A stretch of DNA of 34,755 bases. Source: Blastocatellia bacterium. GTDB lineage: Bacteria; Acidobacteriota; Blastocatellia; HR10; J050. The stretch covers positions 102,567 to 137,321 of the forward strand of contig JANWZE010000031.1 of assembly GCA_025054955.1 (NCBI GenBank). The letters run 5' to 3'. The notes beneath the pieces are model-generated. The model was not told where the DNA came from. It was given only the letters and a program-made list of their open reading frames with translations, and did not search any database. A program made the translations under genes and the position numbers. This document shows positions 3,073 to 34,755 of the stretch, piece by piece (the stretch's first letter is position 1; every line of letters begins with the position of its first letter).

Positions 3073-3427
3073 AGCGCCTCCGTTCGATATGAATTTGCTG
3101 AAGCAAACTAACGCAATGCGTTCATGTGGTAGCGTGACCATCCACATACTGCGGCCAATGGCGAGCTTGGCCAATGCGGTTTATTTGCAGGCAAATTGCG
3201 TGCCACACCCTGGAAGGAACAGCGTTGCTCTGGCCGAGGATTACAATCGTAGGCACATCAAACGATTAACATCACCCACCGACAGAAGATGCTAGCACAC
3301 GGCGCGATGGGGTTGATTCACCGCTCTGCTTATCTTGAGGACACTTGTTTCATTTTTGAGACAAAAAGGCGGGCTATGACCGGAGCCATAGCCCGCTTTC
3401 AGCCGTCTTGACGAGCCTTCAATCGAA
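3073..3427. other. Gene-free spacer between receptor gene and response regulator
   Basis: 355 bp between two minus-strand genes. It holds the receptor's terminator at its right side; the remainder (about 3073-3360) should carry the promoter of the response regulator, but I see no convincing -35/-10 pair. No coding frame is supported. Confidence 0.6.
3362..3398 (-). terminator. Rho-independent terminator of the giant receptor gene
   Basis: Read on the minus strand, a perfect 10-bp GC-rich stem (GCGGGCTATG / CATAGCCCGC, arms 3387-3396 and 3369-3378) with an 8-nt loop is followed closely by a run of five T (3363-3367). It lies about 30 nt after the receptor's stop codon. Confidence 0.92.
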
Positions 3428-6400
3428 TTAGAATTCGTATCGGAAGGCAAACTGCATCACGCGCGGCGAGCCTTGGATGCCGACGAAATTGCCGAAGTTC
3501 GGCGCTGGATTGCCGATATGCGGATCAATATCCAGTCCCAAGCCGACGCGCGTCACCAGCAGATCGCCTAGTCGCTGCGTGTTGCTGACATTGAAAACTT
3601 CCCAGCGGAATTGCAGCGTGTGATTTTCGCTCCACGGCATGGTGAACGATTTGCCGAGCCCTGCGTCCAACGTGACGTATCCGGGCAACCGAAGCACATT
3701 GCGGTCGCCTGTTTCGCCCGGATAGGCGTTGCGGAAACTGCGGTAGGCGAAGACGGGGTCCTTAAACAAGTTTGGCGCAGGGCCGCTCTTTGTTGGCGAG
3801 GACTTAATCGGCCGATTTCTCACGCCGTTGCTTTGAACGTTCCAGTTGGTCGCCCATTGCTGAGCATCGAACGGGGTCTGCGCCGGCAATCCTGAATTCC
3901 AGCGAAAGATGCCGCTCAGTTGCCAGCCGCCAAGCAGCGCATCCGCCGCGCGCGACATGCCGCCGAGATATTTTCGGCCACGCCCGATAGGAATTTGCCA
4001 CAAGGCATTCGCGTTGATGATGTGGCGAATGTCGAAATCCGATTCGGCGCGGTTGGCTTCCGGTTGCAGCGGATTGAGAATGAACGCCGAGCCGTAAGCG
4101 CCGCTGGTTTGTAATCCAGAAGCGTTATCCATGGACTTCGAGAGCGTGTAATTCAGATCGAATGAGAGTTGGTTGCCAAGCCGTTGGCGCACGGTCAGCG
4201 TGCCAGCATGGTAATCTGAATCGGCGATCGTGCTGAATGTGGCCAGAGCAGCATACTGCGGATGGAAGTAGATGTTACGCCCGAGCACAGAACGATCATC
4301 TATGAGCAGTTGAATGAACGTCCAATCCAAGATGTCAAGTCCGTTGACGCGGTCGCGAGCTACCAGCCGATACACCGTTTGCGTCGGCGTCAGTTGAACG
4401 CCACCGACAACGCGCGTGAAGCCGGGGAATAAGTTTTCAAAATAGGGAATCCGCGGCACCGCGGTCAACGGCGTGTTCTGCTCGCGGTAGTTGGCCAGCA
4501 AGCCAGCCGCCGTGTACCAGTCCATGCCGGAACGCGGATCAACCAGGTTGTTCAGCGCCATAATATCGCGCGTGGCCAGCAAATCGCGGCCCAACCGGCC
4601 CACATAAGACAGCTCGAGGAAGAAGCCGCCAGGCAGTTGGCGTCCGTATGAAACGCTCCAACTGTAGTTGCGCGGCGAGCGGATCGTGTCATCCAGAGAA
4701 GACTCGATCCGTTGATCCTCGTCGGCCGGTGTCATCAATGGGAAAGTCAAGCGGCTGGGCACGCGAATGCCCGGCAACGAGCGAACATCCTGCCCGAAGC
4801 TGGTAAACAGCGGCCCCGGCCGATCCGTGACGTTATAGGTATTCGCCGCAATCACCTGAGACGACGAAAATCCAAGCGTGTTGTTCAAGTCGAATTGCAC
4901 AGCCAGTTGCTGACCAATGTAATCGTTCGTGATTGAAAAACCGCCGCGGAACACCGACGCATTGTCGCCGCCGAGCAACTTGCGCCAGAAGCCGCCACTG
5001 GGATTGGGCGACCACGCAAGAGCCACGCGCGGTTGATAGTTGTTGGTATCCCAATTGTAGTAACCGGGCCGACGATTCTTTGGCCCTGCCAGATCAACAG
5101 TAATCAAATCATTCACGGGAATGCCGCGCGCCGCATTGACCTTACGCGCTTCGAAGAATTCGCCCAGACTCGTCGTTGGCTTCACCTGAAATCCGGTTGC
5201 TTCATAGACGGGCCGACTCAGCGAATAGCGCAATCCCCATGTTAACGTCAGTGTCGGATGCAGCTTCCACGTGTCCATGAAGTACCAATCGTACTCTTCG
5301 GTGGCGAATTTACGAGCATTGCCCGCGCCAACACGCCGCAGACTGCCATCGCGGTTGAAGTTGAAATTGGCTTGGTACTGAGAATACCGACCAATCAGCG
5401 CGCATACAGCATTGCGCACCGGCGCGGTAAATCCAGGGGCAATGTTGGTGAATGGTTGGCTCAGCACGGCGCCGGACAGATCATAGAACGATGGATTGGC
5501 AATGGCCGAATCGAAAGCCGTGGCGAAACTGATCCGATTGTTCCGAATCGCCCGGATGTTGGTGCCGAACTGGAAATTGTGACTCCCCTTCAGCCATGAC
5601 ATGTCGTTGACGATGTTGTGAACCGGCGTTGTGCGGCTCAGTCCCCGACTGAAGATGCGCGGGGAGAAAACGAACCGGAAGAAAATTTGATTTTCCGCTG
5701 AATCACCCTGATTGGTAAACGCCTCGCGGGTCAATCCGTAGCGGAACGTATTGACCAGCGCATTGCTAATCGTCCACGTATGTCCCACAGCCACGCCCCA
5801 TGGATGGTTCCAGAAGTTCGGCGCCGGCGTGTCAGGGAACTGAGGAACGCGCCCGATGGTGTCCTGTTGGTAGTTCGCCCGCAAAAACAGCAGGTGCCGG
5901 CCATCTTCCGTGAGATTGAAATCGAGCCGGGCGATATTGGTGTTCCAGCGTAACGGCGTCGCCGCATTGAAGCGATAACCGCCCGTGTTGAAGCCGTCGC
6001 CTTCCGTATTGTCATTGACCGGATAGCGACGGGCTGCCTCAGCCAAGGCCGCAATCGCCACCGGATTCATGCGAACATCGGGGAAGAGCCGATTCAGCTC
6101 GTCTGTGCTCAGTTGGCTGATCCCGCCGGCCGAATTCGGATAGATCAGTTGCCCGCGACCCAAGCTTGCTCGCGGCACAACACGGACGACACTTTGCTGA
6201 CTGGAGTCCCGTCGGCCTTCGTATGTGTAGAAGAAGAAGGCGCGGTTCTTCTTGATCGGTCCGCTAATGGAGCCGCCAAACAAATTGCGCAACAACGCCG
6301 GTCGCTCCACGCCGCTTCGGTTGTTGAAGAAGTCATTAGCTGTCGTCACCGTATTGCGATGAAACCAATAGAGTGATCCATGAAACTCGTTCGAGCCGCT

Positions 6401-7141
6401 CTTCGTGATCAGTGAGACCTGCGCTCCGGCTGACCGTCCCTGATTGGCATTAGGATTGATCGTGGTGACGCGAAACTCCTGCACGGAATCGGGCGTCACG
6501 CGCAACACGCTGGAAAACGCTTCACCGGTGATTGGATCAAGGCCGGTTTGCTGCTCATTCACATCCACGCCATCGAGCGTCACATTGGCTTGATCGGCGC
6601 GTGAGCCGGTGACGTAGCCATCGGACGTCACGCCCGGTTGCAGGCTCAACAACTGAACGACGTTGCGCGATTCCAACGGCAATTGCGTAATCTGCCGAGC
6701 CTCGAAGTTGTTCCCGATGGTGGCATCCTGTGTGTTCACGAGCAACTCGCTCGCGCCGGCTGACACAGTGACCGACTCAGTCACGGCGCCCACTTCCAAC
6801 CTGACGTCCACAGTGACCGCTTTATCAACCAGCGCAGCAACGCCCGTGACAACGGCTTTTCTGAATCCGGAGGCCTCAACCTCAATTTGATATGTGCCCG
6901 GTGGAATCCCACTGAAGACGTATCCGCCGTCTTGATTAGACGTCTGCGTGCGGATGAAGCTCTTGGCTTCATTGGCTAACGACACGGTCGCGCCGGCGAC
7001 AGCATTGCCCTGCGGGTCCTCGATTGTCCCACGCACAGTCGCTGTGCCAATTTGGGCCATCGCTCCCCCGCCGATCAGTCCCAAGATGCATAGTAAAAGA
7101 AAGCATCGAACCAAATTCCAACACAACTGATGCTGAAGCAT
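3428..7141 (-). CDS. Oar-like TonB-dependent receptor, carboxypeptidase-regulatory-like domain plus beta-barrel
   Basis: 1237 residues from the ATG at 7141, preferred over the upstream ATG at 7171 because AAAGGAGG lies about 4 nt before it and the protein then begins with a normal signal peptide ending GGAMA-Q. Residues about 31-115 form an Ig-like carboxypeptidase-regulatory domain ([28 protein letters not shown]). A plug-like region follows (about 120-250, with [19 protein letters not shown] and [10 protein letters not shown]). The remaining 980 residues are a long outer-membrane barrel ending FAFRYEF; the terminal Phe fits recognition by the BAM complex. Acidobacterial relatives are called Oar-like or TonB-dependent receptors; the ligand cannot be deduced, though large peptides or polysaccharides are common guesses. 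I see no clear TonB box. It is monocistronic, with a terminator downstream. Confidence 0.93.
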
Positions 7142-12090: not shown

Positions 12091-12705
12091 CTACGCCGAA
12101 CGTTTCATCGAGCGTGGCATGCTGTTGCATTGCGAGTTGCCTAAAACAACCTTATTGCGCGTACACTTCAGCTTCCTTCTGAGCCGGCAAGCGCGGGTGT
12201 AGGAGGTTGCTGAAGAAAGACCACTGACGCTTAGCCTGCTCTGCCGCTCAGCGTGCTCAGCTAGAAGCAGCGAAAGGCACTGCTGCTCATCGGGACTGAG
12301 TCTTTGCCAGAGCCAGTGCATCACCAACTCGAATACTTTGGTCTCGTAAATCACATCCGGCCGTGACCTGTCTCCATCAGCGATTGAGAACTCGGCTTCA
12401 GATAATGGACTGAAGAGCTGCTGCGCGCGCGTGGTTCGGCGAATGTGATCACCAACCTTATGGTGGATCGTATGGCATAACCAACCTGAGAATTGGTGAG
12501 CCGGCAGGTGCTTCAATTTCTGTACAATGGTGAGGAGCACTTCTTGGGCGACATCTTCGGCATCTGCCTTGTTGCTGATGCGGCAGTTCACATAGTGGCA
12601 CACTACATGAGCCACCTCGCTCCAGAACAGCTCTATGGCTTGGGCGTCCCCCGTGCGGGCGGCTTCCAGGAGCAACTGTAAGTCTAGCCGTCCTCCTCGC
12701 GCCAT
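12091..12705 (-). CDS. ECF-type RNA polymerase sigma factor, divergent region 4
   Basis: 204 residues from the ATG at 12705, chosen for the GGGAGGAAGGGA ribosome site just upstream; the frame runs back to 12801 without added domains. Residues about 14-95 fit sigma region 2 (AARTGDAQAIELFW, then ADAEDVAQEVLLTIVQKL and FSGWLCHTIHHKVGDHIRR). Residues about 134-182 fit region 4 (LSPDEQQCLSLLLAEH, then TSYTRACRLRRKLK), but the helix that normally reads like EIAxxLG is replaced by ERQSRLSVSGL, so promoter reading may differ or be weakened. The last 22 residues are a basic tail. No anti-sigma factor is adjacent. The exported three-gene operon starts about 490 bp away in the opposite direction. Confidence 0.82.
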   Translation of the reverse strand: MARGGRLDLQLLLEAARTGDAQAIELFWSEVAHVVCHYVNCRISNKADAEDVAQEVLLTIVQKLKHLPAHQFSGWLCHTIHHKVGDHIRRTTRAQQLFSPLSEAEFSIADGDRSRPDVIYETKVFELVMHWLWQRLSPDEQQCLSLLLAEHAERQSRLSVSGLSSATSYTRACRLRRKLKCTRNKVVLGNSQCNSMPRSMKRSA

Positions 12706-13190
12706 ATCATCCCTTCCTCCCAAGCTGTCACTGTGGCAGCTTTGATCTGTGGTTTTCTCTTTTCCGGTGCCCGGACTTGCACCGACCGTAATAACCGCCA
12801 TAAATAAAAGACGGATTTTTTGCTCAATAATCCTTCAAGCTCAGAAAAAATTTTTTGTGTAAGATTTTTGCGTCTCGAGCAATAAATAAAGGTGGAGGGG
12901 AAAGAGCCCCTCAATCCTTAACGGGCATCAGGGTAGAGCAGACGCTGGAGGTGTTACATCGCGTGTTTAAGACCAACTCCACCACGGGCCGATTAGGGCG
13001 GAAGATGCGCCGAAAGAAGGTGACGGAGAACCACAGTTTACCGGTGCTCCATGAATCCCATTGTCCTCAGAGGGAAGCCTCCACAAAAGGCGTATTGAGG
13101 TCCGGAGGTGTGGTGTAGTTGAGACGAGGGTTCGCACACAACTGCGGAACTCTTTTGCGTTTAACTCTAACTTTGCTTGAAGGAGGAAAG
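12706..13190. other. Divergent intergenic region between sigma factor and exported operon
   Basis: 485 bp. It contains the second copy of the A/T-centred motif (12821-12860). From 12860 to 13180 I find no gene, no clear promoter pair and no repeat seen elsewhere. A plus-strand frame at 12855-13118 has no ribosome site and no recognisable product. The operon's first gene is preceded by a strong AGGAGGA site. Confidence 0.55.
12821..12860. repeat. 40-bp A/T-centred motif, copy 2
   Basis: TGCTCAA at 12821, then the 20-bp AAAAAATTTTTT-centred stretch at 12839-12858, identical to copy 1 and at the same 18-nt distance. It is upstream of the sigma-factor gene, as copy 1 is upstream of the metallo-hydrolase gene, in the same orientation. 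Confidence 0.65.
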
Positions 13191-14039
13191 ATGATGATAC
13201 AGAAACTACGCTTGCATGAGATACTCATCGCGTTTGTGATTTGCGCGTTTCTTATCAGTTCCTTACCCTTAGAGACCACGTCGGCTGGGATTGACGATGG
13301 CAACCCTAGAGAAGTGGGAGTTGAGTGGGTCAATAGCTACGGCGGCTGCGCCGGTAATCTAGGCAATTGCGATGATGATGCCGTCGGCTTCTATAATCGC
13401 CTGCGCTCAGCCGGCTGGACGGGCAATTTCAACTGGGGGGATAGTAACGCCTGGGAGGAAGACTTCAAGAAGGTCGCGCTCGGCGGCACTGACGCGACCT
13501 TTATTGACACGGTGGACTTCGCCTACTCCTGCGGTCATGGCTGGGAGTACGGGATGGTTTACAATAGTAGTAGTGGCACGCGAGACGACTGCTATCTTGA
13601 GTTCGCTCCCTGGAAGGCACGGGAGCCGCAGTGGGGCGATCTCGATCTGGATTGGATCGTCCTGGATCACTGCCTGACACTGGCTTACAACAACGGCGAG
13701 GTCTTCTCGAAGATGCATCCCTCCTGGAGTGACAATTCGCAGAATGTCATGAGTGGAGTTCACATGATCCTGGGATTCGATACGATCGCCTACGACACGG
13801 GCGTGCGAGGACCCTACTTCGCCAGCTTGCTGGTGGGAGATTATTTCTGGCTCTTCTGGAGACAACTCAAGATTCGGGAGGCCTGGTACTACGCCACCAT
13901 CTGGTCGGAGCCCTCAACGACCCGAGGCGCTTATTTGGGCCAAGGGACTACCAGTGAGGATTTCCTGCCGGGCATCGGTGGACAGGGACCCGATCCCGCC
14001 GTGAATGCGCCTCTCTATTACTCCAGGTGGACAAACTAG
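13191..14039 (+). CDS. Exported DUF6345-type protein, putative caspase-like (clan CD) peptidase
   Basis: 282 residues from the ATG at 13191, which follows AGGAGGA; a frame extending to 13119 lacks a ribosome site. Signal peptide about 1-33. The mature start (EVGVEWVNSYGGC, then NCDDDAVGFYNRL and GWTGNFNWG) is what I recall of the DUF6345 family. Two motifs stand out. His116 is in YSCGHG, after a hydrophobic strand. Cys161 is at the end of a second strand (DWIVLDHC). This His-Gly / strand-Cys order and spacing is the catalytic layout of clan CD peptidases (caspases, gingipains, legumain). Later blocks (GVHMILGFDTIAYDT, REAWYYATI) are also family-like. Peptidase activity is an inference. It is the first gene of a three-gene operon; the next, 17 nt on, looks like a propeptide-type protein. 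Confidence 0.78.
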   Translation: MMIQKLRLHEILIAFVICAFLISSLPLETTSAGIDDGNPREVGVEWVNSYGGCAGNLGNCDDDAVGFYNRLRSAGWTGNFNWGDSNAWEEDFKKVALGGTDATFIDTVDFAYSCGHGWEYGMVYNSSSGTRDDCYLEFAPWKAREPQWGDLDLDWIVLDHCLTLAYNNGEVFSKMHPSWSDNSQNVMSGVHMILGFDTIAYDTGVRGPYFASLLVGDYFWLFWRQLKIREAWYYATIWSEPSTTRGAYLGQGTTSEDFLPGIGGQGPDPAVNAPLYYSRWTN

Positions 14040-14056
14040 GCAAGGAGGAAACGACA

Positions 14057-15040
14057 ATGGCAAAAGCAACTAGAATATTACTGCTCACGGTCATGTTAAC
14101 GGGAATCAGCTTTGCCCTCATCCATGCTGGCACACCCGCTGCACAGGGCGGCCCGCCAGAATTTGTGCTGGAAACCACGAGGCCCAGCGTTGGTCGGAAG
14201 GTGAAGATGTATAAGACCAGGACGGTGAATGCGGCGGCCGAGGCCACCCGATTGCGAGCCAGCATGGGGCTGAGAGGTCAAGTGCGGTCGGCCAACCAAG
14301 GCGTCAGCATCAATGATGGGGATAGAATCCTTGGCGTTTTCGAAGGCAGCGGCGCTGTCGTCTTTGCGGATCGCGGAAAGCTCTTCAGCACGGTCGCAGG
14401 ACAAAGTTTGCCCAACCGTGGCCAGGCTATGAATATCGCTCGCGATTTCTTCAGCAGGCATGGGCTGTTGCCAAAAGAAGCTCAAATTCTCGATGTGTCC
14501 GAAACGCGAACCGCCACCGTGACTGGCCCGAATGCCACTCCCTCGGAGGTGGTCAATAACCTCGTTGTCCATTTCAACTTCAAGATTGAGGGCCAAGAAG
14601 TCGTTGGCCCAGGAGCTAAAATGTCCGTCACTATTGGAGCCAATGGAGAGGTCATCGGCGCCTATCGAGCCTGGAGAGACATCGAGTCAGAGGTGGAGGT
14701 GGACGCTGGCACACCCGATAGAGCACTGAGTAAATTCATTGAGATCAGCCGGGCGAGTCCGCCCAACCTGTTCAAGACGGCGACGCTGAAACCGGTCAAC
14801 AAGGTCAGGATTCGACATTTTCAGGTGGGATACATGCTCGCCCCTGGACCGGAAGGCTCCCGAAACACCCTCGAACCCGTGTACGTCTTCCGAGGGAAAC
14901 TGGAGGGTCACCGTGAGCCGGACGAAGTTCAAGGTAATAGAAGCAAAGGCGCCATTGATGACTTTGAATTCTGGCTGCCGGTGGAAGCACGAGCCCTGGA
15001 AGCCGTGTCTGTGAAAAATCCTCAGCCACCTATGAGGTAA
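14057..15040 (+). CDS. Exported PepSY/propeptide-like protein
   Basis: 327 residues; the ATG follows AAGGAGGAAA, and a frame from 14027 overlapping the previous gene is less likely. Signal peptide about 1-29. Residues about 85-135 (a hydrophobic strand, then NRGQAMNIARDFFSRHGLLP) and 165-210 (NLVVHFNFKIEGQEVVGPG, MSVTIGANGEVIGAYRAW) have the strand-helix-strand layout of FTP/PepSY propeptide domains, which keep secreted proteases inactive or help them fold. The third part (about 215-327) repeats the style (ALSKFIEI, PVYVFRGKLEG). There is no catalytic motif. It directly follows the putative peptidase, so I infer an inhibitor, chaperone or separate propeptide acting in trans. The family assignment rests on pattern only. 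Confidence 0.6.
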   Translation: MAKATRILLLTVMLTGISFALIHAGTPAAQGGPPEFVLETTRPSVGRKVKMYKTRTVNAAAEATRLRASMGLRGQVRSANQGVSINDGDRILGVFEGSGAVVFADRGKLFSTVAGQSLPNRGQAMNIARDFFSRHGLLPKEAQILDVSETRTATVTGPNATPSEVVNNLVVHFNFKIEGQEVVGPGAKMSVTIGANGEVIGAYRAWRDIESEVEVDAGTPDRALSKFIEISRASPPNLFKTATLKPVNKVRIRHFQVGYMLAPGPEGSRNTLEPVYVFRGKLEGHREPDEVQGNRSKGAIDDFEFWLPVEARALEAVSVKNPQPPMR

Positions 15041-15102
15041 GCCGTTTATCGAACAACTCCCCACCGTGGAGATCAACCTCATGGTGGAAAGTTGGATGAC
15101 TT

Positions 15103-16182
15103 ATGGTACATAGGAAAGCCTCGGTCGTGATTCTCCTGCCTCTGCTGCTTGCTGGGGGAGGATTCCTTCTCTCTCTTCCATGCTCAGCCACGAGCGACAT
15201 TGTTTGGAAGGCGCGAGACAGCCCGCATCTCATCAGGCAAGACTTCACGGTGCGAAGCGGGGATAGACTGACCATAGAGCCAGGCAGTGTTGTGATGGCA
15301 GCGGCAGGGGCGGGGCTCATCGTCGAGGGAGTATTGAGGGCCCATCGGGTGACGTTCACCGCCCTCGCCGGTGAGTGGAAAGGCATCGTCTTGAAGAATC
15401 CAGACAACAAAGAGAGATCATTGATCAAGCACTGTTTGATTGAAAAAGCGCAGACCGCGATACTGATCACGAGTTCTTCTCCGGATGTCATCAACAACAC
15501 TATAAGAAAAAATCAATATGGCCTCATCACCGAGAGGACAGGAGCCTCGCCCAACATCGTCAATAACCTCATTACCGAGAATCAACACATCGGCGTCGGC
15601 TGTTTTCCTAATTCGCTGGCGCATGTGACCGGTAACACGATCACAAAAAATCGCGCTGGTGTCAAAATGGGGTGGTCCTCATCGCTCATTGCTCGGAACA
15701 ACATCATGGACAACGAGCTGGGCATTGACATGAACTTCTCTTCTCCTCACGTCGTTGAGAATGCCATAACGAACAATTCGATTGCCATACAGAGCCAGCA
15801 AGAGTCAGCGCCTCTTGTCTTGGAGAACGTCATCCTCAGCAATGGAGTGAACCTGAGGAACACAGATCTCAACATCACGGTTGTCGCGCAATATAATTGG
15901 TGGGGGACAACCGATCAAGCGCAAATTACCCGAACCCTGGAGGGTAAAATCCTTATCTTGCCTTTTCTCAGCCAGCCTCCAGAGTGGTTTAACCCCGGTC
16001 CTGGTCTTCGAGAAGCCAACAAGATCAACAGGCGATCCAAGAAGTCATATCGAAGATCAGGGCCAGCGGCCGATCAATCACGGTTTAGAGACCGCGCTTA
16101 TATGAGTTGGCTAGACGGATGGCATAAATTCTGGCACCGCCAGCCCCAGAGGGCCACAGGTAATAGCCTAGGGCAGAGCTGA
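15103..16182 (+). CDS. Exported NosD-like right-handed beta-helix protein
   Basis: 359 residues with a signal peptide (VVILLPLLLAGGGFLLSLP, cleavage near CSA). Residues about 45-90 form the cap typical of these proteins (DRLTIEPGSVVMAAAGAGLIVEG). Then come about eight turns with Asn ladders (DVINNTIRKNQYG, NIVNNLITENQHIG, HVTGNTITKNRAG, NIMDNELGIDM), as in NosD/parallel beta-helix proteins, and a NWWG motif near 267 that commonly closes such helices. The last 60 residues are basic and low in structure. The ribosome site is weak (GGTGGAAAG about 14 nt upstream). It lies 62 nt after the propeptide-like gene and is probably the third gene of that operon. Copper or sugar binding cannot be claimed. 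Confidence 0.8.
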   Translation: MVHRKASVVILLPLLLAGGGFLLSLPCSATSDIVWKARDSPHLIRQDFTVRSGDRLTIEPGSVVMAAAGAGLIVEGVLRAHRVTFTALAGEWKGIVLKNPDNKERSLIKHCLIEKAQTAILITSSSPDVINNTIRKNQYGLITERTGASPNIVNNLITENQHIGVGCFPNSLAHVTGNTITKNRAGVKMGWSSSLIARNNIMDNELGIDMNFSSPHVVENAITNNSIAIQSQQESAPLVLENVILSNGVNLRNTDLNITVVAQYNWWGTTDQAQITRTLEGKILILPFLSQPPEWFNPGPGLREANKINRRSKKSYRRSGPAADQSRFRDRAYMSWLDGWHKFWHRQPQRATGNSLGQS

Positions 16183-16282
16183 CAGCCGCCCTGCGAACCA
16201 CGCCCCCAAAGTGAGTGAGCCCCGGCAGCGGTGGGTGACCACGTTGCTACATGTGTAACGTTTGGAACGGAAGACGTCCAAG

Positions 16283-16509
16283 GTCAGCTTGCGCCGGAGG
16301 CGCGAACAGCAGGTAGCCAGATGTGCAACGTCTGGAACAGCAGACCAAACAATCGTGGCGCGTTGGAGACGCGCCAAGAGATGGGTGTTCGCGGCGAGCG
16401 GTTCACTTGCATGAGCGACCCCATGGGAGCACTGCTGGCGCCTCCCCAAGGCGCCTTGGGGATTGGGGGATGATGTCTGCCCCAGACGTTTCACGTCGGG
16501 CTACCCTCT
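16283..16509 (+). repeat. Dispersed intergenic repeat A, copy 2
   Basis: About 227 bp, inverted relative to 1890-2112. Shared landmarks in order: TCAGCTTGCGCCGGAGGCGC, GGTAGCCAGA, GTGCAACGTCTGGAACAGC, GCGCCAAGA-ATGGG-GTTCGCGG, ACCCATGGGAG, CTGCTGGCGCCTC, GGGATTGGGG, CCCAGACGTTTCA and GGCTACCCTCT. The spurious proteins read through both copies are also alike, simply because the DNA is. Confidence 0.8.
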
Positions 16510-23514: not shown

Positions 23515-26500
23515 ATGAAGCAAGTTCATATTCGGGCATTCAGCCTCTTACTAACTTTGTTCCTCAGTATTCCACTGGGCCTCTTCGCTTACGCTGACAG
23601 GAGCGACCTGTCAGGAGAAGCGACCGTCTCTGCCGATTCTTCATTCGATGTTCCTTATAGCGTGGCTCAGCACGGCGAAACTGAAACCATCACCGCGACC
23701 CTCCAGGGCGAATCGCTTGATGAAGCTGATACTCCCTTTCAAGCAAGCACCGAGTTGAGCGTGGATGATGGTTCGTTTGAAACGGCGCTCGGATTGAATC
23801 AACCCGGCACAATCTACCTGATCAACCGATTGCGTCCACCCAGCTATCCGGCCACGCTCGTGCAACTGCGCATTCCGTTTCGCACCAACGATAACTTGAC
23901 GGTTGGCTCATCCATTACGCTGTTGGTCGGCACAAACCCTGACGGCGATGCCGACATTGATGGGACGTCGTTTCAGCAGTTCAGTGGCACAATCCAAAGT
24001 CTCGGCCAGTTCAACCTCTACAATACACCGGCTGTGACGATCAATGCCGGCGATTTCGTCGTTGGCTTTCGCATGACGATTCCGGCAAACGTCTTCCCCG
24101 GCGCGCTGGACACGTCATCGCCGTCGCGTCGGTCGTATGCTTCGACCAACGGGGTGAATTTCACGCTCGTGGATGACATCAACAATAACGTGCCGGATGG
24201 TGATCTTGGTATTCGAGCGATTGTCAATTTGCAAACGTCGTCTGCGCAAACGGGCGCGTTGCTGGCTTCTTACGTTTCCAACAACGATACCGGGACCGGC
24301 GATCTGACTACCATCCGCGACCTCACAACCGGTCAGTTGGGCACTACCATCTTGACCCAAGGCAACAATGCCGAAGTAGTGGTCGCGCCCAATGGCCAAT
24401 ATGCGCTGGCGCTGCCCACTGGCAATGGCGATTCGGTCTCAATCATCACCGGATTAAATCAACCTAATCCGGTAGAGAGTCGTGTCTTGCCCATCGGCAA
24501 TACGCCGAATGCAGCAGCCATCACACCCGACAGCAGCACCGCGATTGTATTCAATGCGTTCACCAATCCGGTGTCGTACCGCATCATCAGCAATTTGCCC
24601 TTTAATCCATCTGTATCGCCACTGTTCACCATTCCCAATACAGTCACCGGAAACAATTCGGGCGTCGAAGATGTGGCGTTGTCGCCATCGGGTGATACGG
24701 CAATCGTTTCGCTGTTTGACGATGATGAGGTCGCCATCATTGACGGCATTCGCAGCGGATCGCCGTTTGTCCGAGGCCGCGTGGACGTCAGAGATGGACC
24801 GAATGGCGTGGCATTTGGTCCTGATGGCAACACCGCCTTCGTCGCCTGTTCGCTCGACGACAGTATTTGCGTCGTTTCCGGCTTGCGGCAGGGCGTTCAA
24901 CCGTTCTTTGTTCGCCGCATCCGCGATAATGTTCGCGATACGCCGCAGGCCATCGCGCTCGTGCCGGGACGCTCGCGGATCATCGTGACCAACACCGGCG
25001 ATAATAGCGTGTCCATTTTCAGGATCGTGGGCAATGGCGATGATTTGCAGCATGTCCAGAGACTCTCGGTAGGTTCTGCGCCCGCCGGCTTAGATGTATC
25101 TCAGGATGGCAGCGCGGCGCTAGTGGCCAATGCCAATAGCCGGACTGTCTCCGTGCTACGCGGCATTGATACATCAAGCCCTTATGTCGCTGCCACGCTG
25201 GGCGGTTCGTCACCATGGGATACGGCTGTGTTTGCTGAACGCTCTATTGCGTTCGTGAGTGGCGTCACCGGCACAGGTGGCGGGATTCTGGATGTTTCAA
25301 CGACCTCGTTGACATTCAATACTCAGGTCGGCGATACCACGCCTCCTTCGCAACAGTTCCTCGTGCGTAACACAGGCAACAGCGCGTTCTCATACTCGAT
25401 CAGCAACAACAATCCAAGCCTGGTCACGCTCTCGCCCGATAGCGGCTTCCTGCAACCCGGTCAGTCCAACGTCATCACTGTGTTTGTCACGCCGCCAACA
25501 TCTGCTGGGACGCGGCAAGCGGTGTTGACGGTGAGCGCGCCGGGGGCGCAGAACAGCCCGCGAACGGTGACAGTGATAGTGAACACGACAGGGGCGCCGG
25601 CCATTTTGGATGTTTCGCCCACATCGTTGACGTTCAACACGCAAGTTGGTGGTGGGAATCCGCCAGCGCAGAGCTTTTTGGTGAGAAACATTGGCAGCGG
25701 ATCGTTCACCTACTCGATCAGCAACAGCGATCCGAGTTTGGTTAGTTTCTCGCCGAGCAGTGGGACAGTGTTTGGCGGACAATCGCAAACGGTGACGGTG
25801 TTTGTGAGCAATCCGAATCAGGCTGGGACGCGGCAAGCGGTGTTGACGGTGAGCGCGCCGGGTGCGCAGAACAGTCCGCGGACAGTGACAGTGATAGTGA
25901 ACACGACAGGGGCGCCGGCCATTTTGGATGTTTCGCCCACATCGTTGACGTTCAACACGCAGGTCGGAGACACGACGCCGGTCTCGCAAACGTTCTTGGT
26001 GAGGAACATCGGCAGCGGGTCATTTTTCTATAGCATCAGCAATAGCAATCCGGGATTGGTTTCGATCTCGCCTGATAGCGGAACCGTATTTGGCGGACAG
26101 CAACAAACTGTGACTGTCTTTGTCACGCCGCCGACCACAGCGGGCACGCGCCAGGCGACCTTGACGATCAACGCGCCGGGGGCGCAGAATAGCCCGCGCA
26201 CTGTGATTGTGACGGTCAATACAACTTCTGCGCCGGCTGTTTTGAATGTATTCCCCAGCTCGTTGACATTTGTGGCGGTTGTCGGTCAGGGGAATCCGCC
26301 GCCGCAGCCGATTACGGTGCAAAACACCGGCGGCGGCTCGCTGACATTCACCATCACCACGAGTGGCGCGCCTGTGAGCGTGGCGGAATCGAGTGGGACG
26401 TTGCTGGCCGGTCAGTCACGGTCGGTGCCTGTCTCGGTGATCAACCCGAACACGCCGGGCACGACCACGTCGCAACTGATCGTCAGCGCGCCGGGCGCGC

Positions 26501-31807: not shown

Positions 31808-34755
31808 GTGAAGCACATTCGTACTCATCAAGCACTCGGTTATTTCCTTGCCATTATCATAGGAATTCCGTTAGGGCTATTCACACTAGGACAACCAGGC
31901 ATGACGCAGCGGCTGGCAGCCCACGCCGATTCATTACAACAAGAGATCGCCGTTGATGACTCGGGCGTGGTCGAATATGACGATCAATTGTCGGTCGCTG
32001 ATGGTGAGCTGGATGCGGTTGCCAGCGTTGCTCAAACCACGGAGCTGAGCGTGGACGACGGCTCGTTTGAAACATCGCTGGGATTGAACAGCCCCGGAAC
32101 AACCTACTTCGTCAATCGGCTGCGACCGCCGAGCTATCCGGCTACGTTGTCGCAGATCAGAATCTTTTGGCGGTCCGCGCAAGGCATCTCGGTCAACCTG
32201 CCGGTGACGTTGCTTGTTGGCACCAATCCTGACGGTGACGAAAACATCAACGGAACTACGTTTCAGCAAACCAACGCCACGATTCAATCGCTCGGTTCGT
32301 TCAACAACTATTCGGTGCCGAGCGTGACCATCAACTCTGGCGATTTCGTTGTAGGATTTCGCGTGCAGTTTAATTCGCCAACGTTCGCCGGCGCTACCGA
32401 TACCAGCCCAACATCGAACCGCCGGTCCTATTTCTCCACTGATCCTGCCGGCGCGACGTTCACCTTGACCGAAACCATTCCCAATATCGGCGGCGGCAAT
32501 CTGGGCATTCGCGCCATCGTCACCGTGCAACAACAACCGAGCGGCGGCGTGGACGCCCTTGTTGCTTCCTACATTGATCCGAATCGCGGCGACAACGGCA
32601 CGGGTGATCTAACCAGCATCTTGAATATCGCCACGACGCCAACAATCGGCAGCAGCATCGCCACACAAGGCAATAATGCCGAAGTCGTCATCGCGCCGAA
32701 CGGTCAATACGCCATCGCCTATCCCACCGGCGCGGGTGATTCAGTCACGATCATTAACAATTTGCAATCGAATCCGGCACAAGGCCAGACGATTCAAACC
32801 GGCAACACGCCCAATGCCGTTGTGATCACACCCGACAGCAGCACTGCCATTGTGTTCAATGCGTTGAGTTCGCCGGTCACCTATCGCATCATCCAAGGTT
32901 TGCCCAGTTCACCGGCCGTATCAGGAACGTTTTCCATCACAGGCGCGAATAACACGGTGGCTGAAGATGCCGCTATCTCGCCAGCCGGCACGACTGTGCT
33001 CGTCTCACTATTCAATTCAAATCGGGTGGTCATCCTCGGCGGTTTTCCTGGCGCGCCCACATTGCGCGGCACGATTGACACCGATCAAGGACCCAATGGC
33101 ATCGCGTTCACACCCGATGGCAATACGGCATTTGTGGCGAACACGCTTGGCAACAGTATTGAGGTCATCTCCGGGTTGTTGCCCGGTAATGTCCCATTCG
33201 GCGCAAACCGCGTGTTCACCGGCGTCGGCCCCAATCCGCAGGCGATCGCTTTAACACCTGACGGAACCAAGGCGCTGGTGACAAACACGGGCGGCAATAC
33301 CGTCTCGGTTTTTCAGGTCAGCGGCACGAATTTGACCTTATTGCAAAACCTGACCGTCGGTCAATCGCCTGCTGGATTGTCCATCTCATCCGACGGGCAG
33401 ATCGCGCTCGTGGCCAATGCCGGCAGCAACACGGTTTCAGTCATTCGCGGATTGAATACGCCAAATCCGTTTGTCGCCCAAACACTCGGACCGGCGCAAT
33501 CCTTGGATACGGCTACATTCGCCGAGCGCTCCGTTGCGTTAGTTCCAAGTGGCGCGCCGCCGCCACAAGCGCCGGATTTCGTCGTGGAAAACCTGAGCAT
33601 CAGTCCAACCAGCGCAGCGCCCGGAGCTAACGTCACAGTTAATTTCACCATTCGCAATCAGGGGAATGCGACAGCCGGCAGCGCTACCCACACCATTGTG
33701 CTGTCACCGGACAACAACATCACCACTGGCGATCAATTGTTATTGAGCGTAGCGACGCCGGCACTGGCGGCAGGCGCGGCGCAGGCATTTTCGCAGACAG
33801 TGACGATTCCTGGGAGCGCGGCAGCCGGGACGCAGTTCATCGGTGTGATCGCGGATGCGCCGAACGCGGTGGCCGAATCGAACGAAGGGAACAACACGGC
33901 AGCGACGCCGATCACGATTGTGGCGCTGCAACCTGATCTGATCGTGCAGAACCTCAGTGTGAGTCCGACGACGGCCAACGCTGGATCGAACGTGACGGTG
34001 AGTTTCACGATTCGGAATCAGGGCAGTGCGTCGGCAGCTTCGACGAGTCACAACATCGTGTTGTCGGTGGATAACGTGATCACCGGTGCTGATCAGGTGT
34101 TGTTGAGTGTGGCGACGCCTGTGCTGGCGGCTGGTGCGCAGCAAGCGTTCACGCAGGTGGTGACGATTCCTGCTGGAGCGGCAGCGGGGACGCAGTTCAT
34201 CGGTGTGATCGCGGATGCGCCGAACACAGTGACAGAGTCCGACGAAGGGAACAACACGGCTGCGACGCCGATCACGATTGTGGCGCTGCAACCTGATCTG
34301 ATTGTGCAGAACCTCAGTGTGAGTCCGACGACGGTGAGTGCTGGGTCGAGCGTGACGGTGAGTTTCACGATTCGGAATCAGGGCAGTGCGTCGGCGGCTT
34401 CGACGAGTCACAACATCGTGTTGTCGGTGGATAACGTGATCACCGGCGCTGATCAGGTGTTGTTGAGTGTGGCGACGCCTGTGCTGGCGGCTGGTGCGCA
34501 GCAAGCGTTCACGCAGGTGGTGACGATTCCTGCTGGAGCGACAGCGGGGACGCAGTTCATCGGTGTGATCGCGGATGCGCCGAACGCGGTGGCCGAATCG
34601 AACGAAGGGAACAACACGGCAGCAACGCCGATCACGATTGTGGCGGCGCAGCCCGATCTGATCGTGCAGAACCTCAGTGTAAGTCCGACGACGATGACTG
34701 CTGGGTCGAACGTGACGGTGAGTTTCACGATTCGGAATCAGGGCAGTGCGTCGGC
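31808..34755 (+). CDS. Exported mosaic protein, partial: terminal domain, propeller, CARDB repeats (runs off the window)
   Basis: At least 982 codons, open to the window end. The start is a GTG at 31808 behind AGGAGGAGACAAG; the frame is in line with the signal peptide (YFLAIIIGIPLGLFTLG), which closely resembles that of the 1375-residue paralogue. Parts: beta-sandwich about 80-240 (VDDGSFETSLG, NRLRPPSYPATL, GDFVVGFRV, RRSYFSTD, LGIRAIV); YVTN-type propeller about 248-575 that is alignable to the one in 23515-27642 (TQGNNAEVV-APNGQYA, PDSSTAIVFNA, FAERS); then CARDB Ig-like repeats of 120 residues from about 589 (PDLIVQNLSVSPTT, FTIRNQGSASA, GTQFIGVIADAPN, ESNEGNNTAATPI). Here CARDB takes the place of BACON repeats. 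The C-terminal part lies outside. Confidence 0.85.
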   Translation, partial: MKHIRTHQALGYFLAIIIGIPLGLFTLGQPGMTQRLAAHADSLQQEIAVDDSGVVEYDDQLSVADGELDAVASVAQTTELSVDDGSFETSLGLNSPGTTYFVNRLRPPSYPATLSQIRIFWRSAQGISVNLPVTLLVGTNPDGDENINGTTFQQTNATIQSLGSFNNYSVPSVTINSGDFVVGFRVQFNSPTFAGATDTSPTSNRRSYFSTDPAGATFTLTETIPNIGGGNLGIRAIVTVQQQPSGGVDALVASYIDPNRGDNGTGDLTSILNIATTPTIGSSIATQGNNAEVVIAPNGQYAIAYPTGAGDSVTIINNLQSNPAQGQTIQTGNTPNAVVITPDSSTAIVFNALSSPVTYRIIQGLPSSPAVSGTFSITGANNTVAEDAAISPAGTTVLVSLFNSNRVVILGGFPGAPTLRGTIDTDQGPNGIAFTPDGNTAFVANTLGNSIEVISGLLPGNVPFGANRVFTGVGPNPQAIALTPDGTKALVTNTGGNTVSVFQVSGTNLTLLQNLTVGQSPAGLSISSDGQIALVANAGSNTVSVIRGLNTPNPFVAQTLGPAQSLDTATFAERSVALVPSGAPPPQAPDFVVENLSISPTSAAPGANVTVNFTIRNQGNATAGSATHTIVLSPDNNITTGDQLLLSVATPALAAGAAQAFSQTVTIPGSAAAGTQFIGVIADAPNAVAESNEGNNTAATPITIVALQPDLIVQNLSVSPTTANAGSNVTVSFTIRNQGSASAASTSHNIVLSVDNVITGADQVLLSVATPVLAAGAQQAFTQVVTIPAGAAAGTQFIGVIADAPNTVTESDEGNNTAATPITIVALQPDLIVQNLSVSPTTVSAGSSVTVSFTIRNQGSASAASTSHNIVLSVDNVITGADQVLLSVATPVLAAGAQQAFTQVVTIPAGATAGTQFIGVIADAPNAVAESNEGNNTAATPITIVAAQPDLIVQNLSVSPTTMTAGSNVTVSFTIRNQGSAS
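33572..34755 (+). repeat. 360-bp tandem DNA repeats encoding CARDB units
   Basis: Units start at 33572, 33932, 34292 and 34652 (the last is cut off). The second and third are almost identical at the DNA level; the first is clearly more diverged in its front half and then joins the common sequence near 33820. This suggests recent tandem expansion. Confidence 0.92.

Follow-up and report, generated by a model that had tools for sequence, protein, structure and literature searches.

Introduction

The FTP propeptides of secreted peptidases are known both for inhibition and for their part in folding, and proteins with the PepSY/YycI fold also have roles besides the inhibition of peptidases. PepSY domains have been summarised as inhibitors or regulators that act either within the same chain or in trans, with YycI named as a PepSY protein and YpeB, which acts on SleB, representing an example of a PepSY protein that regulates a partner (PMC4282423). 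Among the peptidases of clan CD, in which core strands 3 and 4 carry the catalytic dyad at their ends, gingipain R has an N-terminal prodomain that inhibits (PMC4357240). The Pfam family DUF6345 (PF19872) has no function assigned to it by Pfam. The literature that we searched, beyond whose reach most subscription journals lay, contained no mention of DUF6345 or report of a catalytic activity for any of its members, no pairing of PepSY with a caspase-like enzyme in the relevant sense, and no prior description of the module considered below.

In this study, we analysed a window of 34,755 nucleotides, the whole stretch of DNA under consideration here, in which a DUF6345 gene is followed on the same strand by a gene for a propeptide-like protein. 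The reading that we favour, at a probability of roughly 60%, is that the former encodes an exported cysteine peptidase which the product of the latter keeps latent, or assists in folding, in trans, a proposal modelled on the gingipain prodomains and on the FTP/PepSY propeptides of metallopeptidases.

The locus

The features of the locus are as follows:

13180 to 13190, + strand: ribosome-binding site of the DUF6345 gene, recognised from its sequence
13191 to 14039, + strand: DUF6345 gene (protein 1), 282 residues, with an N-terminal signal-like helix at residues 8–22 and a predicted caspase-type domain at about residues 41–281
14057 to 15040, + strand: partner gene (protein 2), 327 residues, probably exported, linked to DUF6345 and FTP/PepSY-propeptide-like by profile homology
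15103 to 16182, + strand: beta-helix gene (protein 3), 359 residues, with a Pfam NosD/Beta_helix match

The three open reading frames had been described in an earlier note on this DNA as an exported operon, and their positions, their common + strand and the spacing of 17 nt from the stop codon of protein 1 to protein 2 all agreed with that description; 62 nt separate the stop codon of protein 2 from protein 3. Strong ribosome-binding sites precede the DUF6345 gene (GGAGGAAAG-ATG) and the partner gene (GGAGGAAACGACA-ATG), and each of the three proteins begins with a signal-peptide-like segment. The host genome contains one DUF6345 gene and one clear partner gene, the only other partner match being weak (E 0.02).

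Several other features of the window were recorded. A sigma-70-type gene (12091–12801, - strand), which has a Pfam match to region 2 and none to region 4, is divergent from the DUF6345 gene and 390 nt from its start. Two inverted copies of a 154-nt sequence, 86% alike and with 14 kb between them, occupy positions 1975–2128 and 16268–16421, the second of these being just past the beta-helix gene. Long repeats of 318 and 360 nt stand in tandem at 25477–26206 and 33731–34755, within or near genes for large exported proteins. Rfam had no matches across the window.

Protein 1 has a predicted caspase-type fold and a conserved His/Cys dyad

The assignment of protein 1 to DUF6345 that had been made from the sequence alone was borne out by Pfam, as protein 1 scored 173 bits (E 8e-51), with the cut-off at 26.9, and matched positions 1–218 of the 221 in the profile. 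It is thus a full-length member of PF19872, to which our analyses add a partner and a predicted caspase-type fold. DUF6345 was the only one of these families to pass its Pfam cut-off, those for C14, C25, C13 and CHAT not being passed by protein 1, and among 50 DUF6345 members there were weak matches to Peptidase_C25 in seven (best E 0.018) and to C14 in two (best E 0.025). Profile–profile alignment to CHAT with hhalign placed His116 and Cys161 on the His and Cys of CHAT, with a score that is weak alone (2%, E 0.023). A plain sequence search of the PDB identified no relatives of protein 1 or protein 2; a PDB search with the protein 1 profile matched repetitive designed 'Pizza' proteins, which we judged to be chance.

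An AlphaFold2 model of protein 1, based on 50 aligned relatives, had a caspase-type alpha/beta fold with a mean pLDDT of 86.9 and a pTM of 0.84. Foldseek searches with this model returned a CHAT peptidase as the top match (E 3.5e-6) followed by caspases (E 1.5e-4), and comparisons with VIA gave Z scores of 14.4 for CHAT, 14.2 for metacaspase-4, 13.6 for caspase-7 and 13.1 for gingipain RgpB. In the model, strand 110–114 leads to His116 and strand 155–159 to Cys161, with two short strands between, so that each residue is predicted to lie at the C-terminal end of its strand, the two strands being consecutive in the core, as in clan CD. The caspase-type core and the adjacent placement of the pair that had been anticipated from the sequence are therefore both present in the predicted fold.

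The residue numbers that had been proposed for the dyad proved correct, and among 60 distinct relatives Cys161 was conserved in 59 of 59, His116 in 57 of 58, Gly117 in 54 of 58 and Asp106 in 53 of 58. Since the dyad is near-invariant across phyla while most other columns are variable, selection for it is implied. Protein 1 is probably an exported clan-CD-type cysteine peptidase that uses His116 and Cys161.

Protein 1 nevertheless differs from the described peptidases that it most resembles. It shares with gingipain R (C25) a caspase-type core, the His/Cys pair and probable export, but the DUF6345 family matches the C25 profile only weakly, and the DUF6345 partner, unlike the gingipain prodomain, has its sequence affinity with FTP propeptides and is often encoded by a separate gene. 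CHAT and the caspases and metacaspases (C14) are its best fold matches and their His and Cys positions align with its own, whereas protein 1 has no Pfam match to either family, has a signal-peptide-like start and has no SAVED or TPR partner.

The partner is homologous to FTP propeptides

Protein 2 had no Pfam or NCBIfam matches, scoring below the gathering thresholds of both FTP (PF07504) and PepSY (PF03413), and weak FTP matches were found in four of 49 of its relatives (best E 0.021). At the profile–profile level, homology was evident: the partner family aligned over 64 columns, at the FTP motif, to the FTP propeptides of M4/M36-type metallopeptidases (hhalign 92%, E 5.8e-7), the negative controls having E values of 0.36 and 0.55. 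Searching the PDB with the protein 2 profile produced chance matches only, such as TolQ. Of the weak matches to the partner profile, L081 is a sugar-dehydrogenase-like protein that we took as chance, and L080 lies in the N-terminal part of a protein bearing a zinc-metallopeptidase motif.

The fold of the partner was read from L009, a natural DUF6345/partner fusion from the same phylum, and is assigned to protein 2 by homology. The model of the fusion had a pLDDT of 77 and a pTM of 0.61, with a relative placement of the two domains that is not reliable. Its DUF6345 half again matched CHAT, gingipain (Z 13.6), legumain and caspases, and its partner domain matched YycH (E 5.8e-5) and YycI (E 1e-4) in Foldseek, with VIA Z scores of 14.0 for 5coz and 11.2 for YycH. 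Together, the FTP alignment and the YycH/YycI-type fold of the homologous domain back the earlier description of protein 2 as propeptide-like.

As with the peptidase, the resemblance to described systems is partial. The partner shares the FTP motif with the propeptides of M4/M36 metallopeptidases, but the putative peptidase beside it is cysteine-type-like and differs in fold, and the partner has a downstream gene to itself at 28 of the 57 directly classified loci. It resembles the WalK kinase regulators YycH and YycI in the predicted fold of the L009 domain, and YpeB, which acts on SleB, as a PepSY-type protein with a partner in trans (PMC4282423), yet the gene to which it is linked is neither a kinase nor a cortex-lytic enzyme. 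No linkage to walK/walR was found: the linked gene is DUF6345, at 62 of 64 loci, and no WalK-type gene lies beside the pair in the window.

DUF6345 and its partner are linked across bacterial phyla

DUF6345 genes were sought in samples of five phyla, comprising 396, 350, 284, 111 and 128 genomes, of which 9, 20, 13, 8 and 3, respectively, were positive, and in named contigs. Using a partner profile seeded with protein 2 alone, we found the partner domain at 62 of the 64 resulting loci, either fused upstream or downstream of DUF6345 or encoded by a same-strand downstream gene, although the inclusion of near-copies and overlapping views (L026-L039, L049/L050, L061/L070 and L067/L069) means that there are fewer independent cases than loci. 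Direct classification with the profile placed the partner in the DUF6345 protein or in an adjacent open reading frame at 57 loci. The remainder included L046, in which the partner is located one gene further on, and L051 and L052, in which a diverged partner is directly downstream (hhalign 83%, E 9e-6); L041 and L053, whose DUF6345 matches are weak, have a partner too. One of the two loci without a partner is at a contig end (L040) and the other is below the DUF6345 cut-off (L054). All loci from L060 to L073, which were fetched after the profile had been built and represent an independent test, were partner-positive. The profile had no matches in 204 kb of control DNA, and its six strong matches in 199 genomes of the phylum were all at DUF6345 genes.

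In 28 of the 57 directly classified loci the partner is a separate gene, always downstream on the same strand, while 24 have N-terminal and five have C-terminal fusions. The earlier suggestions that the second domain would be found fused or adjacent to DUF6345 elsewhere, and that a long N-terminal region of other family members is split off here, are both borne out by these counts. A tree built from 58 DUF6345 domains, many of whose deep forks are unsure, has the architecture switching at least 10 times, a sign of recurrent fusion and fission. At two loci of one genome (L155 and L069), a tandem pair of DUF6345 genes precedes a single gene that encodes two partner domains, and a fused form is present on one Deinococcus plasmid. 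Searches of IMG/VR and of defence and phage libraries found nothing.

Some of these loci have additional features. At L155, the two-partner gene is at 3121–5292 (minus strand) and the DUF6345 genes at 5213–6016 and 6020–6829, and the two-copy partner ends in a stretch that by eye is dockerin-like (DWNGDGAVDLSDV). At L087 (3614–7294, minus strand), a 1227-residue protein with DUF6345 at its end, adjoining a partner gene, also has CUB and phosphatase N-terminal-like (fibronectin-type) domains. On an Armatimonadetes contig, the gene after the partner (L002, 7813–8613) combines the N-terminal domain of copper amine oxidases with a weak PepSY match.

A simple hydrophobicity count identified signal-like N-termini in 21 of 28 split partners, 19 of 24 N-terminal fusions and 21 of 28 split DUF6345 proteins, relative to a background of 10% of random stretches. 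These N-terminal sequences support the export of most proteins in all three groups. Export of DUF6345 proteins may not be universal, as the frames read for those of L004 and L007 lacked a signal-like N-terminus.

Alternative interpretations

Four other interpretations were weighed against that of a peptidase with a trans-acting propeptide. The most serious, although unlikely, is that protein 1 is a peptidase of clan CD fold and that protein 2, rather than inhibiting it, is a folding chaperone, scaffold or cell-wall or sensor adaptor in a standing complex similar to YycH-YycI-WalK. The closest folds of the partner, YycH and YycI, are indeed regulators of a histidine kinase, the fused partner remains in one chain and is often joined to DUF6345 via an Ig-like or SprB-like spacer, and the two-copy partner of L155 has an apparent dockerin at its end; the homology of the partner in sequence, however, is to FTP propeptides, known for inhibition and folding, and its commonest fused form is N-terminal and hence zymogen-like. 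We consider it distinctly improbable that protein 1 is instead a clan-CD-fold transpeptidase or ligase, comparable to GPI transamidase or the asparaginyl ligases, to which protein 2 presents or sorts surface substrates. Clan CD does include ligases, and legumain-type ligases and the catalytic subunit of GPI transamidase were among the structural matches, but the weak Pfam matches of the family are to C25 and C14 rather than C13, and the surroundings of 29 DUF6345 loci showed no neighbour family that recurs widely. Slightly less probable again is a caspase-fold pseudo-enzyme whose pair with protein 2 is a structural or binding complex: an Asp in place of His116 in the relative L063 speaks for it, whereas the near-invariance of both dyad residues across phyla, amid mostly variable columns, argues against it.

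The remaining interpretation, that the three genes form one unit with the beta-helix protein as its scaffold or substrate, had been raised in the earlier note and appears improbable, if a little less so than a ligase. The identity of protein 3 as a beta-helix protein, probably exported, was upheld by its Pfam match (NosD/right-handed beta-helix). Its signal-peptide-like start, the shared strand and the 62-nt gap speak for a single unit. Against this, no beta-helix homologue was present near the 29 other DUF6345 loci, most of which were viewed with several kb on each side, and in four other genomes genes of the FGE-sulfatase type (PF03781), with signal-like N-termini, directly adjoin the DUF6345/partner pair (L084, 4140–4886 and 2076–2816; L153, 4201–4992; L156, 3887–4720; L157, 3923–4957). 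The third gene is therefore variable, with the FGE-sulfatase-type gene a possible alternative third component. The operon layout thus stood, and the beta-helix gene is probably co-transcribed with the pair, but its membership in the functional unit is weaker than had been claimed, a role as scaffold or substrate was not supported by the other loci, and it does not belong to the conserved part of the module. Its product would be a local passenger or, possibly, a substrate.

Implications

In the interpretation that we favour, that of a peptidase with a propeptide-like partner in trans, protein 1 would be a caspase/gingipain-type (clan CD) cysteine peptidase acting via His116 and Cys161, and protein 2, exported from the next gene, would bind it outside the cytoplasmic membrane. 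The partner would aid the folding of protein 1 and maintain its latency until the partner is removed or digested, and in fused relatives this would take place within a single chain. Whether this extends to a previously undescribed protease module, exported and shared across phyla, that pairs a caspase-fold cysteine peptidase with a YycI/FTP-type regulator maintaining its latency and that switches freely between one chain, in either order, and two genes, is in our estimation an even bet. As split and fused forms both occur in nature, inhibition could be tested directly on a pair of purified proteins.

Our analyses provide DUF6345, which is present in many bacterial phyla and has no assigned function, with a predicted fold, a probable pair of catalytic residues and a near-obligate partner. 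They suggest that the control exerted by regulators of the FTP/PepSY type, as known for metallopeptidases, extends to caspase-like peptidases that act outside the cell. If this is true, one pro-domain principle would serve both metallopeptidases and caspase-like peptidases.
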